Origin: Dethiobacter alkaliphilus AHT 1
Lineage (GTDB): Bacteria > Bacillota > Dethiobacteria > Dethiobacterales > Dethiobacteraceae
Reading direction: 5' to 3'
Assembly: GCF_000174415.1 (NCBI RefSeq)
Contig: NZ_ACJM01000012.1
Span: 1-64,000 of the forward strand
DNA length: 64,000 nucleotides
Part shown: positions 23,491 to 64,000 of the stretch, one piece after another
Numbering within the stretch: the stretch's first letter is position 1
How the letters are laid out: the number at the start of each line of letters is the position of its first letter
The notes under the pieces: model-generated
The model's input: the letters and a program-made list of their open reading frames with translations, nothing else
Told to the model about the DNA's origin: nothing
Databases searched by the model: none
Made by a program: the position numbers and the translations under genes

Positions 23491-23671
23491 GGCTTCACCA
23501 CCTGGATTAACTGCAATGATATTCCTATTTTACGTTAGGTTGTCCGGGTTTGCAAATTGTGGTTATTAACATAAAGTTAATTTTTTGTCGGTAAATTTTA
23601 TTGCCTATGGAAGGAGAATCTGGAAAATAGTCGAACTTTAATAGTCAATGTTGAATAAAGGAGTGCGAACC

Positions 23672-24361
23672 TTGATTGAAATTAAAGAAGTAAGTAAGCA
23701 TTATAACGGCAGCCATGCCCCTGCATTGGCGGGATTTTCACTGCAGGTGGAGCAGGGCGATTTTTTATTCCTGGTGGGCCCCAGCGGAGCGGGAAAGAGC
23801 ACATTAATTAAGCTTATTTTCCGTGAGCAGACCCCTTCTGCAGGAGCAGTGCTTTTTGATGGTAAAAGCATTGCCGATTTTAAGCAAAATGAGCTGTTAA
23901 ACCACAGAAGAAGAATCGGTATGGTTTTTCAGGATTACCGTCTCCTGAAACAAAAGACGGTGTATGAAAATGTGGCCTTTGCCCTGGAGGTAATTGGCAG
24001 CTCCCCCAAAGAAATTCGACAAAAGGTACCGGCAGCCATAGAAAAGGTGGGCCTTAAGGGTAAGGAAAATTCATTCCCCACCGAACTTTCCGGCGGTGAA
24101 CAGCAGCGGGTGGGCATTGCCCGCGCCATCGTCAAGGAGCCGCTGATGATTCTGGCGGACGAGCCCACCGGTAATCTGGACCGGGAAAACGCCCGGCAGT
24201 TAATGTCTCTTTTTGAAGATATTAACCGGGAAGGAACTACGGTGATTATCGCTACCCATGCCTGGGATATGGTGGATCAGATGCAAAAACGGGTAATTGC
24301 GTTGGAAAACGGACGGCTGGTCCGAGACGAACAACGGGGGAGTTATGGCCGTGAACATTAA
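23672..24361 (+). CDS. ftsE: Cell-division ATP-binding protein FtsE
   Basis: A 229-residue ABC ATPase of the FtsE family, which with FtsX drives activation of peptidoglycan hydrolysis rather than transport. Walker A is GPSGAGKST, the Q-loop MVFQDYRLL, the signature LSGGEQQRVGIARA, Walker B LMILADEPTGNLD and the H-loop ATHAWD. TTG 23672 is chosen: AAAGGAG at 23657-23663 lies 8 bases upstream and the protein then begins at the conserved MIEIKEVSK. Its end overlaps the ftsX start by 17 bases, giving translational coupling. Confidence 0.94.
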   Translation: MIEIKEVSKHYNGSHAPALAGFSLQVEQGDFLFLVGPSGAGKSTLIKLIFREQTPSAGAVLFDGKSIADFKQNELLNHRRRIGMVFQDYRLLKQKTVYENVAFALEVIGSSPKEIRQKVPAAIEKVGLKGKENSFPTELSGGEQQRVGIARAIVKEPLMILADEPTGNLDRENARQLMSLFEDINREGTTVIIATHAWDMVDQMQKRVIALENGRLVRDEQRGSYGREH

Positions 24362-25235
24362 TTCAATGAGATACTGTCTGCGACAAAGTGTGGTTGCGCT
24401 GTTTCGCAACCTTTGGTTGGCTTTGGTGACTTCAGGAATTATTGCTATTTCCCTGGCAATTTTAGGCGGCTTTTTGCTGTTGGCGGTTAATGCCAGCCAG
24501 TTTATGCGCAATATTGAGTCCAATGTGGAAATCAGCGTCTTTTTAGAGGATGGAGCAGATCCGGCAGCCTTGCAGGCGCAGCTGGGCGGACATGAGGATG
24601 TCTCCGGCTACACCTTTGTGCCCAAAGATGAAGGCCTGGAGGAATTTGGCCGCACCATGGGCGACCGGGTGATGTTGGTGGGCCTGGAAGGCGAAAACAA
24701 TCCGCTGCCTGATATGTTTAAGGTCCGGGCGCACAGAGCAGAAGCCGTTCCGGCTCTGGCTGCGGAAATTCAGTCCTATTCCGGGGTGGAAGTAACAGAT
24801 TTCGGAGAAGAGCTGGTTGCCCGCGTAGGGCAGGTAACGGGTTGGCTCAATACCCTGTTTCTCATCGTCAGCGGCCTGTTGGCGCTGGGCGCCATCTTCC
24901 TTATCGTAACCACCATCCGCCTGTCGGTACTGGCCCGTCAGGATGAAGTGGGGATTATGAAATACCTGGGTGCCAGCAACTGGTTTATCCGCTTTCCTTT
25001 TCTGTTGGAAGGCATGGTGATGGGCTGGACCGGCACCGTGGCTGCAGCGGCAGCTTTGAGTTTTGTCTATTTTCGTGTGGCCTATTCCCTGCAAACCGAG
25101 GCTTTAGCCTTTTTTCTGCAACCGGTAACGGATATGGCCAGAATACTGCCTATTTTTGTGGGCCTTCTGTTAATGGGAACCCTGATGGGCGGCGTGGGCA
25201 GCTATGTTTCTGTCCGCAAATTCTTACGGGTTTAG
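24345..25235 (+). CDS. ftsX: Cell-division permease-like protein FtsX
   Basis: A 296-residue membrane protein with one N-terminal and three C-terminal helices (about 22-45, 170-195, 217-240, 265-285). Between helix 1 and 2 lies the extracytoplasmic loop (about 50-160) that in other bacteria binds the coiled coil of EnvC, PcsB, CwlO or RipC. It carries ISVFLEDGAD and FRVR-type beta strands typical of FtsX. Start ATG 24345 follows GGGGGAG. It is the second gene of ftsE-ftsX-coiled coil/DUF3048 and precedes its presumed partner by about 18 bases. Confidence 0.93.
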   Translation: MAVNINSMRYCLRQSVVALFRNLWLALVTSGIIAISLAILGGFLLLAVNASQFMRNIESNVEISVFLEDGADPAALQAQLGGHEDVSGYTFVPKDEGLEEFGRTMGDRVMLVGLEGENNPLPDMFKVRAHRAEAVPALAAEIQSYSGVEVTDFGEELVARVGQVTGWLNTLFLIVSGLLALGAIFLIVTTIRLSVLARQDEVGIMKYLGASNWFIRFPFLLEGMVMGWTGTVAAAAALSFVYFRVAYSLQTEALAFFLQPVTDMARILPIFVGLLLMGTLMGGVGSYVSVRKFLRV

Positions 25236-25253: not shown

Positions 25254-26660
25254 ATGCGCCACATTGCTAAAATTACCGTGTTTGCGCTGCTTCTGCTCTT
25301 AATTTCCGGTACAGCTTTTGGCAATCCCGGTAATGTCCAGGAGCGTATTGATGAAACCCGGGAAGAGATAGATGAATATGAGCAGGTTATCAAGCTGCTT
25401 GATGAAGATATTAAAGAACGTCTGGCCCGCATTGATGAGCTGGAAAGCCAGCTAAAAGATACCCAAAGGCAGCTTCGCCAGACGGAAGTGGAAATTGCCG
25501 AATCCCAGGCCCGGCTGGAAGAGCAGAATGATGCCTTCGCCGGCAGGGTTCGCAGCGCCTACATGAAAGGCGGCATGTCTTATCTGGAAGTTCTCCTGGG
25601 GGCTGAAAATTTCAGTGACCTGGTGGTCCGGGTGGCCTATCTGGCCCGCATCTTCAATCAGGATGCGCAAATAATTACCGCAGTGAAAGCCGAATATGCC
25701 GTCCTGCAGGAGAAACAGCAGGCCATGGAGGACCAGTTAGCCAGCATCGAGGATTTCCGCTACCAGATGGATGCGCAACGGAGAAATCTGCTGGCTCAGC
25801 GCAGACGGATGGAAGAAATGCTCTCCGATGCCAAAAAGCAACTGCAGCAGGACCTGGCCCAGCTTACCCCTCAAGCCAACCGGCAGCCGGTGTACGGCAT
25901 AATCCTGGATAATGCTGCCGGTGCCCGGCCACAACACGGCCTGGCCCAGGCCAGTAAAGTATACGAATTTGAAGTGGAAGGACGCATTACCCGCTACCTG
26001 GCCTTGTTTTCAACCTTTCCGCAAAAAGTGGGCCCCATTCGCAGTGCCCGGGAGCACAGCATCCTGCTGTCCATGGAAAACGGCGTGCGCTTCATTACAG
26101 CCAGCGCTTCCCGGGACAACCTGGAAAAGATAAATGAATGGAATGTGAAATATACCAATGCGCTGGGTGATTCCCGGTTTTATCGGGACAGCTCTCGTCG
26201 GGCACCCCATAATTTGTATGTTAATCTGGCCTCTCTGGGCCTGGAATCGCGCTCCTCAAAGATGACGGTACGCCCCGCCTATCTTAGCCGGCAGGGAAGT
26301 GCCGCCAACAGTTTTTCCATCGAATACAGTAACAATTATCGCGTGGGCTACCGCTATAATGAACAGGAATCCGCTTACCAGCGCCTGATTAACGGCCAGG
26401 CTCATCGGGATGCCACCGGCCAGGCAATTATGGCCCGCAACGTTATCGTGCAGTATGTCCCCCATCCATCCGATTGGCGTGGACGCCCCACCCCGGATGT
26501 AATTGGCTCCGGCCCCATTGACTTTTATGCCCAGGGCCAGCGCTTCCGCGGCACATGGCGCAAAGATAACATGAGCTCTCCCACCCGCTTCTACTATCAG
26601 GACGGCCAGGAAATCGAACTGCTCTACGGCCAAACCTGGATCCAACTGGCCCGCCCCTAA
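25254..26660 (+). CDS. FtsEX-linked secreted protein: PcsB/CwlO-type coiled coil fused to DUF3048
   Basis: A 468-residue exported protein with a signal peptide (about 1-23). Residues about 27-205 form a long antiparallel coiled coil. It contains RSAYMKGGMSYLEVLLGAEN and FSDLVVRVAYLARIF (about 100-134), closely matching the FtsX-contacting tip of PcsB/CwlO-type proteins. The C-terminal half is not a CHAP, NlpC/P60 or M23 peptidase. It is a YerB-like DUF3048: ARPQHGLAQASKVYEFEVEG and KVGPIRSAREHS, then the C-terminal subdomain with ARNVIVQYVPH, GSGPIDFYAQG and GTWRKDNMSSPTRFY. The short gap after ftsX and the coiled coil strongly suggest FtsEX controls it. The biochemical role of DUF3048 is unknown to me. 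Confidence 0.88.
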   Translation: MRHIAKITVFALLLLLISGTAFGNPGNVQERIDETREEIDEYEQVIKLLDEDIKERLARIDELESQLKDTQRQLRQTEVEIAESQARLEEQNDAFAGRVRSAYMKGGMSYLEVLLGAENFSDLVVRVAYLARIFNQDAQIITAVKAEYAVLQEKQQAMEDQLASIEDFRYQMDAQRRNLLAQRRRMEEMLSDAKKQLQQDLAQLTPQANRQPVYGIILDNAAGARPQHGLAQASKVYEFEVEGRITRYLALFSTFPQKVGPIRSAREHSILLSMENGVRFITASASRDNLEKINEWNVKYTNALGDSRFYRDSSRRAPHNLYVNLASLGLESRSSKMTVRPAYLSRQGSAANSFSIEYSNNYRVGYRYNEQESAYQRLINGQAHRDATGQAIMARNVIVQYVPHPSDWRGRPTPDVIGSGPIDFYAQGQRFRGTWRKDNMSSPTRFYYQDGQEIELLYGQTWIQLARP

Positions 26661-40651: not shown

Positions 40652-42343
40652 TTGCAAACGGGGAGATATATTCTAATACTTATGGTGGTACTGTTGGGCT
40701 TTTCATTACTCTTTTCCGGATGTGTGGAAGAGACTTTTTCCAGGGTGGAAGATCCTGTGGAGCAGGAGGAGGACACAGAGGAGCCTGAAGAAGAAGGGCT
40801 CACCGAAGAGGAAGAAAGGCAGCTTGCTGAAGAGGCCCGGGCAGAAGAACGGCGTCAGCGGGAAGAAGCGCTGAAGGAAGAACTGGGTCACTTTTTTGTG
40901 CCGCTGCCGGCAGATGAACCGGCAGATAATCCGCATGTGCAGGCCAAGGGAATCTATGTGACGGGAAACACGGCGGGCGGTACCGGCAGGTTCGCCGAAC
41001 TTTTGGATTTGTTGGATAATACCGAGTTAAATACCATGGTTATAGATGTAAAAAATGATCACGGCCTGATGACCTACAACAGTGAAATAGAAATTGTCAA
41101 AGAAGTGGGGGCAAACCGTGCCACTCCCATTAGGGACATTTCCGCATTAATGGAAACACTAAATGAACATGATGTATATCCCATTGCCCGGGTAGTGGTA
41201 TTTCGTGATCCCCACCTGCCGGAGAAACAGCCCGACTGGGCTATCCAGAAGAAAGACGGTAGCGGCGTATGGCGTGATCGGAGCGGCTACGGCTGGGTTA
41301 ATCCATATGACAAAAATGTCTGGGATTACAACATTGCCATTGCCAAGGAAGCGGCGCTTCACGGCTTCCGAGAAATACAATTTGATTATGTACGTTTCCC
41401 CGAAAATGCCCGGCGAGTGGATGAGGAAGCAAATTTCCCCGGTTCAGAAGGAAAAGAAAGGGACGAAGCCATTGAAGCGTTCCTGGCTTATGCCCGTGAG
41501 GAGCTCGCAGAGTATAACGTGCATATCTCCGCCGACGTTTTCGGCGTTATCTCCACCTCCTGGGGTGATTCGGACCGAATCGGACAGAGTTGGGAAAGGA
41601 TAGCGCCACTTACCGAAATCATCTCTCCCATGATTTATCCCAGTCACTACGGCCCCGGCTATTTTGGGTTTGCCGTTCCTGATGCCAACCCGGGAGGGAC
41701 GGTAACCAGGGCGTTGGAAGATGCTCTGAAGCGTAATGCTCCACTGGAAAACCCCGGAATTATCCGCCCCTGGCTGCAAAGCTTTACCGCAACCTGGGTG
41801 CGGGGCCACATTCGTTACGGCGCCGAGCAGGTGCGGGAACAGATTGATGCTGCACTGGAATTGGGCATTGACGAATATTTGATCTGGAACGCCGCAAACC
41901 GTTACCATAAAGATGCCTTCCTTCCTGCCGACAAAGCGGCACAGAGAGAAGAGGCCAAAAAGTCAGAGCGCAGGGAAGCAGGGCATGATCAATTGGGTCG
42001 CACCGCAGAAGAAGCGCTAAAAGATTATCTGGAAGCCATGAGAAGAACCCGGTGGCGGGAAGCCTATGCCTGGCAATCCACCACCAATACCATGGATCAT
42101 ACAGAATTTAGGGAATGGATTGACAGCCACACTGCTTCCCTGGAGGATTATGAAATAACAAACCAATCCTCTGCCGGGGATAATGTTGAGTTTACCCTGT
42201 CAGCGGAACTTAAGTTTTCAGAAGGAAATCTTTCTCTGGAAAACAGTAAATTTCAAGTGCTGCAGGAAAACGGTGTCTGGAGAGTCCGCCCGGACAACGA
42301 ATTTTTGGAGATACTGACAAAAGATAATGGAATAAATGATTGA
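40652..42343 (+). CDS. Putative glycoside hydrolase lipoprotein (DUF4015/PF13200)
   Basis: A 563-residue exported lipoprotein with lipobox LFSGC (Cys24) and a highly acidic coiled linker (about 28-75). A TIM-barrel domain of the putative glycosyl hydrolase family PF13200 spans about 95-425. Its landmarks are VKGIYVTGNTAG-like AKGIYVTGNTAGG, NTMVIDVKNDHGLM, IARVVVFRDPHL, EIQFDYVRFPE with a probable catalytic Asp, SADVFGV and EIISPMIYPSHYG. The C-terminus (about 450-560) looks like a separate NTF2-like or wall-binding domain. It probably acts on cell-wall or exopolysaccharide. TTG 40652 follows GAGGGGG. A Spo0A-box-like TTCGACA lies at 40592-40598. Confidence 0.83.
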   Translation: MQTGRYILILMVVLLGFSLLFSGCVEETFSRVEDPVEQEEDTEEPEEEGLTEEEERQLAEEARAEERRQREEALKEELGHFFVPLPADEPADNPHVQAKGIYVTGNTAGGTGRFAELLDLLDNTELNTMVIDVKNDHGLMTYNSEIEIVKEVGANRATPIRDISALMETLNEHDVYPIARVVVFRDPHLPEKQPDWAIQKKDGSGVWRDRSGYGWVNPYDKNVWDYNIAIAKEAALHGFREIQFDYVRFPENARRVDEEANFPGSEGKERDEAIEAFLAYAREELAEYNVHISADVFGVISTSWGDSDRIGQSWERIAPLTEIISPMIYPSHYGPGYFGFAVPDANPGGTVTRALEDALKRNAPLENPGIIRPWLQSFTATWVRGHIRYGAEQVREQIDAALELGIDEYLIWNAANRYHKDAFLPADKAAQREEAKKSERREAGHDQLGRTAEEALKDYLEAMRRTRWREAYAWQSTTNTMDHTEFREWIDSHTASLEDYEITNQSSAGDNVEFTLSAELKFSEGNLSLENSKFQVLQENGVWRVRPDNEFLEILTKDNGIND

Positions 42344-44026: not shown

Positions 44027-44139
44027 CCGGGTCGGGTATGACCAGCACTTCAATTGGAAACATTATCTGTGATAACTTTACATAACCGGTCGCAGGATTT
44101 TGGTGAATAAGGTCGAAGTGAGTGTGTTGAGGTGACGAG

Positions 44140-44856
44140 ATGAGCAAAGCAGAGGCTGTAGCCCAATTAAAACCAAATGCCGGGCGGGAACTGACCCGGG
44201 AAGTTGATGGACAAGTCTTTTTAAGATATCCGATTCGCACTCATTTTGTGGAAGTGGGAGAAGATTATTTTGAACTGGTTGAAAAGTATGTGCTGCCCTA
44301 TTATCAGGACGGAGACATACTTTCTATAAGCGAGAAAATTATAACGCTGTGCCAGGGAAATGTATTGTACAAAAGTAGCGTAAAGATAGGCTTGTTGGCC
44401 AAAATTTTAGCTAAGTTTGTTATGAAAACACCGCGGGGTGAACGACCGGGTAATCTGCTTAAAATGCAGACAACCATTGACCTGTGCGGCCCGTGGAAAG
44501 TACTGTTTGCCGCCTTTTTATCGGCAATAGGTAAGCTGTTTGGCAAGCGCGGCATATTTTACAGCTATTTGGGCAATAACATCAATGCCATAGACGGTTT
44601 CAATGATGTGAGCTGGGAATATTATGGTGATAAAGGACTGCTGGGACCCATTGATCCTGATAAAGTCTGCCAGGACATTAGGGAAAAATACAACATAGAC
44701 TGTATGATTGTAGATGCAAATAACATTGGTGTGGAAGTTATGGGCGTTAGCAATGATATCCCATACGACAAGCAGTTTCTGGCAGAGCTGATTATGGATA
44801 ATCCGGCGGGACAGGGCACGGAACAGACTCCTTTTATTCTCATTCGCAAGCGTTAA
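44140..44856 (+). CDS. CofE-like (F420-0:gamma-glutamyl ligase family) protein
   Basis: A 238-residue protein resembling the CofE-like domain (PF01996). GDILSISEKIITLCQGNV corresponds to the CofE core with its conserved SEK/SKI-type strand, and later GPIDPDKVCQDIREKY, IDCMIVDANNIGVEVMG, NPAGQGTEQTPFILIRK resemble the family's C-terminal part. True CofE adds glutamates to coenzyme F420, but no other F420 gene is present here and Clostridia generally lack F420. A different amide-ligase substrate is therefore likely. The gene stands alone. ATG 44140 follows GAGGTGACG. Confidence 0.72.
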   Translation: MSKAEAVAQLKPNAGRELTREVDGQVFLRYPIRTHFVEVGEDYFELVEKYVLPYYQDGDILSISEKIITLCQGNVLYKSSVKIGLLAKILAKFVMKTPRGERPGNLLKMQTTIDLCGPWKVLFAAFLSAIGKLFGKRGIFYSYLGNNINAIDGFNDVSWEYYGDKGLLGPIDPDKVCQDIREKYNIDCMIVDANNIGVEVMGVSNDIPYDKQFLAELIMDNPAGQGTEQTPFILIRKR

Positions 44857-63773: not shown

Positions 63774-63783
63774 TTTCGACAAA
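63774..63783 (-). promoter_or_regulatory. Spo0A-box-like site before the kinase operon
   Basis: TTTGTCGAAA on the minus strand matches the Spo0A box core TGTCGAA exactly. It lies about 33 bases before the kinase start and just after a TATAAAA-like -10 region, a position suited to repression at sporulation onset. The rest of 63742-64000 contains AT-rich sequence and a GCGACC-aggtg-GGTCGC hairpin at 63975-63991, but no gene I can support. Confidence 0.45.
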
Positions 63784-64000
63784 TTATTTTAATTTCCTTT
63801 TATAATGTATTGCCTGTAAGATATTGCCCATGACCATTCGCAATTCTGTAATGACCAAAATGACCAATATCAACAATATGTCCAAATGGTTGCCACTCTG
63901 AATTTTCAAAATTATAATTAATTTAAGATTTAAAAAGTAGTTATCAGTACGACCGAATTATTCTCCTCCTCTTTAGCGACCAGGTGGGTCGCAATCAGAG

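Follow-up and report, generated by a model that had tools for sequence, protein, structure and literature searches.

What role could DUF3048 play at the end of an FtsEX partner? The partners of FtsEX described in the review and papers that we consulted are hydrolases or hydrolase activators. DUF3048, which is present in YerB of Bacillus subtilis and widespread in Bacillota, turned up in our literature search in one paper, as a named domain without an assigned function. In Dethiobacter alkaliphilus, it forms the C-terminal part of the protein encoded by the third gene of an ftsE-ftsX operon. The relevant features of the window, i.e. the whole stretch of 64,000 nucleotides that was analysed, are as follows.

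23612..23636, plus strand: putative sigma-H-type promoter, with -35 AGGAGAA, an 11-nt spacer and -10 GTCGAAC (AGGA-N14-GTCGAA without mismatch, 23612-23635)
23672..24361, plus strand: ftsE2, ATPase (TIGR02673 FtsE, above the curated cut-off)
24345..25235, plus strand: ftsX2, permease-like subunit with an extracellular domain (NF038347, PF18075 FtsX_ECD, PF02687)
25254..26660, plus strand: FtsEX effector of 468 amino acids, a fusion of a coiled coil and DUF3048 (ORF, Pfam; conserved in 45 genomes)
25254..25325, plus strand: predicted Sec signal peptide (MRHIAKITVFALLLLLISGTAFG; sequence, and an N-terminal hydrophobic helix in the model)
25335..25865, plus strand: two-helix antiparallel coiled coil, residues 28-204 (CC_PcsB, AlphaFold2 helices, profile matches to PcsB, RipC and EnvC)
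25527..25667, plus strand: tip of the coiled coil, residues 92-138, predicted FtsX-contact region (conservation, PcsB alignment)
25872..26240, plus strand: DUF3048 N-terminal domain (PF11258, 104.8 bits)
26316..26642, plus strand: DUF3048 C-terminal domain (PF17479, 88.5 bits; DUF3048 as a whole can be superposed on YerB, 2psb)
40652..42343, plus strand: candidate partner, a DUF4015 putative glycosyl hydrolase lipoprotein (homology to the gene at locus L050)

The first two genes were identified by the NCBIfam scan, in which FtsE scored 280.0 bits (cut-off 264.85) and FtsX 259.9 bits (NF038347, cut-off 225), and by Pfam, with 65.9 bits for PF18075. The likely start of ftsE2 is the TTG at 23672, which stands behind AAAGGAGTG; the list of ORFs has the ATG at 23648. 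FtsE2 possesses an intact Walker A (GPSGAGKST), LSGGEQ and Walker B (ILADEP), and FtsX2 matches the solved FtsX chains 8ymc, 8hd0 and 8idb. The 3′ end of ftsE is overlapped by the start of ftsX, and 18 nt separate the ftsX stop from the start of the effector gene. In the effector, Pfam recognizes CC_PcsB (PF24568) at residues 81-154 with 57.6 bits (cut-off 27), DUF3048 at 207-329 and DUF3048_C at 355-463 (cut-offs of 25). CHAP, NlpC/P60 and M23 are absent among the Pfam matches listed (the best 25 of 26 families at E ≤ 1), and no hydrolase domain, CHAP or NlpC/P60, is among the matches listed from the Pfam and NCBIfam scans. The original prediction, that the third gene of the operon codes for an exported coiled coil, is thus borne out by the signal peptide, CC_PcsB and the gene order; Pfam likewise confirms its assignment of the C-terminal domain to DUF3048 instead of CHAP, NlpC/P60 or M23, and the fold matches YerB only. 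The combination of ftsE-ftsX with an exported coiled-coil protein is that of FtsEX-PcsB in Streptococcus pneumoniae and FtsEX-CwlO in B. subtilis, but PcsB and CwlO carry CHAP or NlpC/P60 where the effector ends in DUF3048.

The domain model of DUF3048 (pLDDT 92.8) superposes on the YerB structure 2psb with a TM-score of 0.85 and 28% identity, and 2psb was the sole significant match in the fold search, with which a profile search of solved structures agrees. We discarded the idea of an L,D-transpeptidase- or hydrolase-like domain because both searches give only 2psb with significance and reveal no resemblance to these folds. Over 64 fused and stand-alone members, 24 positions of DUF3048 are invariant, including E238, E242, R247, R263, S264, R266, E275, R377, D386 and W462, while H319 and K437 are nearly so. 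The effector has both DUF3048 halves, the family-invariant residues, many of them common to it and YerB, and the YerB fold (Pfam, alignment, 2psb). These residues look like a site that has been preserved for binding or catalysis, so that the fused DUF3048 probably does what YerB does. YerB, unlike the effector, is a stand-alone lipoprotein devoid of a coiled coil, and the signal region of the window protein contains no lipobox cysteine. No link to ftsEX was seen for the stand-alone DUF3048 members examined. On contig 7 of D. alkaliphilus (L106:5592-8795), a stand-alone yerB is followed on the same strand by a small multidrug-export-type gene and murJ.

To judge from profile and alignment evidence, the N-terminal part of the effector is an FtsEX-partner coiled coil, homologous to those of known partners. 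Its AlphaFold2 model (pLDDT 86, with DUF3048 mostly about 96) shows helices at residues 28-103 and 120-204, with a short one at the tip. A profile built from 43 fusions matched, among solved structures, YerB, PcsB (5.1e-6), RipC of Mycobacterium tuberculosis (2.7e-5), which also has a two-helix coiled coil, and EnvC (1.2e-4); since one keratin coiled coil was found in the same range (1e-4), the weakest of these scores, those around EnvC, are insufficient alone. In the fold search with the effector model, 2psb came top and PcsB next, followed by weaker matches to EnvC-FtsX, FtsE/FtsX/EnvC (the EnvC matches being 6tpi and 8tzl) and FtsEX/RipC, so the similarity to EnvC of Escherichia coli, Vibrio and Pseudomonas appears in profile and fold searches alike. 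The canonical M23 effectors align with the fusion over the signal peptide and the entire coiled coil (hhalign 99.8%, E 4.5e-29).

The likeness to PcsB extends to the tip. Residues 101-114 and 130-148 of PcsB are predicted to bind FtsX (PMC7668044), and these stretches align with about 92-105 and 120-138 of the effector. Of 19 invariant or nearly invariant positions in the coiled coil, 13 fall within 92-138 (p 5e-5, random placement) and 9 in the stretches aligned with the FtsX-binding residues of PcsB (p 0.002, random placement). Because conserved residues cluster where PcsB is predicted to bind FtsX, the coiled coil likely contacts FtsX2 through its tip.

What follows the coiled coil differs from the known partners. 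In the model, helix 2 ends at residue 204 and DUF3048 begins at 207, giving a nearly direct, near-straight junction, whereas in RipC the linker is rich in proline and the enzyme is of the NlpC/P60 type (PMC11627006). EnvC activates amidases and bears a degenerate LytM domain; the effector carries DUF3048 instead, with neither LytM/M23 nor an EnvC-type restraining arm, and the separate alanine-rich regulatory helix of PcsB is also missing from the AlphaFold2 model. With no separate restraining arm in the model, autoinhibition may work differently from EnvC and PcsB, or may not exist.

What the original prediction overlooked is that there is a canonical FtsEX of hydrolase type as well, and that the ftsEX in the window is a second copy dedicated to the fusion. 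The other ftsEX of D. alkaliphilus, on contig 5 (locus L105), consists of ftsE, ftsX, the gene for a 403-residue coiled-coil/M23 protein, and ctpA; this is the ordinary arrangement and the window ftsEX is the additional paralogue, a difference from FtsEX-PcsB and FtsEX-CwlO. FtsE and FtsX of the two loci are paralogous and the coiled coils homologous, but the canonical effector has an M23 peptidase with its motif residues, and its FtsX falls in a separate clade.

The fusion is present in 45 genomes: 32 of 98 in the window's class, among them 20 of 20 in its family, and 13 more from other classes, which come from a phylum sample. Among its named carriers are Dethiobacter sp. and further uncultured Bacillota. 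Since it recurs at full length in 44 other genomes (41-64% identity, the copy in G081 being ended by the contig end), it is not a chance arrangement. The original prediction had been made to depend on an association of such fusions with ftsEX elsewhere, and it survived: ftsE-ftsX lies directly upstream in 44 of 44 assessable loci (G306, at a contig end, was left out, and G067 was assigned by coordinates). This strict linkage, the architecture, and the homology of coiled coil and tip to PcsB, RipC, EnvC and the organism's own M23 effector bear out the view of the protein as an FtsEX partner. A canonical FtsX is also found in 44 of the 45 genomes, the exception being G014, whose assembly is 90% complete, and an M23 domain is encoded downstream of canonical ftsX wherever the next gene is fully readable; none of the 66 fusion-less members of the class has two ftsX. 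Outside ftsEX, no surroundings are conserved across families, the DUF4015 neighbour being limited to part of one family. Two isolated observations concern single genomes: G046 harbours, besides an intact cassette, a second, partial copy of the fusion with an internal TGA (contig 103:11916-12860), and in G190, of another class, a 502-residue gene with a SpoIVA match is convergent with and adjacent to the cassette (L108:6373-9384).

In the FtsX tree, all fusion-linked FtsX form one clade, separated from canonical FtsX at 100/100, and the fusion occurs exclusively with this clade. In the DUF3048 tree, the fused copies stand on one side of a 100/99 branch and stand-alone YerB on the other, which is consistent with a single fusion event. 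The FtsX tree and the fusion tree alike show members from other classes nested among those of the window's class, and supported branches of the latter tree force at least three class changes; this nesting suggests horizontal transfer of the cassette across classes. Searches of plasmids and phages yielded only distant DUF3048 matches. Seven unannotated records of the phage collection (H7-H13, e.g. MT835694), labelled as phage and derived from human faecal samples, hold DUF3048 homologues of 24-29% identity and may be host DNA. We also considered whether the extracellular domain of FtsX is the part that diverges fastest between the clades, but identity there (0.28, versus 0.30-0.38 elsewhere) gave no clear signal.

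Taken as a whole, the locus is in our opinion quite likely a self-contained second FtsEX whose DUF3048 acts in the wall, in parallel with the control of wall cutting by the canonical FtsEX-M23 system. How it might operate we infer by analogy with FtsEX-EnvC and FtsEX-RipC (PMC7668044, PMC11627006). FtsE2, the cytoplasmic ATPase, would drive a change of shape in FtsX2, whose extracellular domains would hold the exported coiled coil at its tip; the coiled coil would relay the change to the YerB-type DUF3048 unit carried on its second helix. Given that the junction is nearly direct and that the model has no restraining arm or alanine-rich helix, the second helix may serve as a lever. The relayed movement would expose or position DUF3048, which would then act in the cell wall, either by catalysing a step itself or as the switch of a wall enzyme. 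Peptidoglycan metabolism would be the target of this ATP-driven control; an action of DUF3048 on peptidoglycan, hinted at by murJ beside stand-alone yerB and DUF4015 beside the cassette, makes a good testable hypothesis.

These two neighbourhoods point to different tasks for the domain. MurJ is the lipid II flippase, and in the window's family murJ adjoins stand-alone yerB at 8 of the 11 yerB loci, and does so in several genera. It is therefore conceivable, if doubtful, that DUF3048 serves as regulator or partner not of hydrolysis but of peptidoglycan synthesis, at a synthase or in the handling of lipid II, and that FtsEX here couples ATP to wall building. The lack of a hydrolase-like fold and the presence of a hydrolase-type FtsEX in the same cells would fit. 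However, the argument is one of adjacency in one family, as murJ is absent at the other yerB loci examined; none was seen beside the cassette, which in half of the family is trailed by a putative glycosyl hydrolase instead.

That trailing gene suggests another possibility, to which we give only tentative credence: without being catalytic itself, DUF3048 could activate a separate hydrolase in the way that EnvC activates AmiA and AmiB (PMC7668044), with the DUF4015 lipoprotein as candidate target. Of 20 family genomes, 10 encode DUF4015 (PF13200) behind the cassette, and five of these 10 do so within about 100 nt. The DUF4015 protein of the window is 55% identical to its homologue at L050, which itself matches PF13200 at 390.6 bits. 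Outside the family, though, no DUF4015 was found beside the cassette in the flanks examined, and in the window it lies some 14 kb away. A gene found behind DUF4015 in relatives lies close to it in the window too, at 44140, so that the interval between the cassette and DUF4015 is now taken up by about 14 kb of other genes.

A third alternative, which we consider improbable, is that this FtsEX works specifically in sporulation, at the polar septum or in engulfment. It draws on the putative sigma-H-type promoter before ftsE2, although the window copy departs twice (G for W in the -35, C for T in the -10) from the sigma-H consensus RNAGGAWWW - 11/12 nt - RNNGAATWW (PMC8510167). Upstream of the cassettes, the sigma-H motif beats shuffles (p ≤ 0.05) in 27 of 31 distinct sequences, and a fixed-spacing AGGA/GTCGAA motif precedes ftsE in most distinct cassette loci. 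Unique sites number 28 at N14, 15 at N15 and 0-4 at other spacings, in a sample where many loci were picked because they contain the cassette. A Spo0A-box reading of GTCGAA was dropped on account of this fixed spacing to AGGA. The whole D. alkaliphilus genome contains 42 sites of this type versus 16 for the reversed control, and one sigma-H-type site precedes spo0A (L154, TIGR02875 above cut-off). But many canonical ftsE genes are preceded by a promoter of this type, including in genomes that lack SpoIVA, and thus the promoter is not a mark of a sporulation-specific cassette.

The distribution of spore markers is likewise divided. Within the class, 29 of 32 genomes with the fusion have SpoIVA or SpoIIR, as against 30 of 66 without it (Fisher 1.7e-5); outside the class, SpoIVA is present in 11 of 13 fusion genomes, and yerB is listed among sporulation genes (PMC3416734; PMC4433262). 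Against this, many genomes with spore markers lack the cassette, G065 has the cassette and neither marker, and a tree-based contrast found no association, though its five pairs are too few to decide. We have ranked the sporulation reading among the rivals because the tree pairs are null and the promoter type is common to canonical ftsE. As regards the promoter motif itself, sites of the sigma-H type (L147-L186) were also noted before kinase-like, parB/noc-like, fliM-like and HD-GYP-like genes, named by eye. The window has two further exact AGGA-N14-GTCGAA sites, one (44094-44117) before the gene conserved behind DUF4015 in relatives, the other (63775-63798, minus strand) before a sensor-kinase-like gene.

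Finally, one might imagine, for a paralogue borne by a minority of relatives in some families, that it duplicates the canonical system, redundantly or in decay, and has no job of its own. This is very hard to reconcile with an identity of about 50% between genera, with intact ATPase motifs, with dozens of residues that are invariant and spread over all parts, and with a cassette kept as a unit across classes.

On the preferred reading of a self-contained second FtsEX, the hydrolase or activator part usual in an FtsEX partner has been replaced by DUF3048, beside a normal FtsEX, and the arrangement is a direct lead to the function of this domain. It gives DUF3048 a likely place in the cell, at the FtsX2 complex outside the membrane and controlled by ATP, and the cassette offers a clean genetic handle, with one cassette and one partner. 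At its most speculative, the cassette may be a mobile additional FtsEX in which ATP serves, by way of the YerB domain, to steer the construction of the wall (a synthase or the handling of lipid II), so that one branch of FtsEX would have a task other than wall cutting; we hold this to be rather unlikely. Should DUF3048 indeed act on wall synthesis, FtsEX could no longer be regarded as a switch for lysis only.
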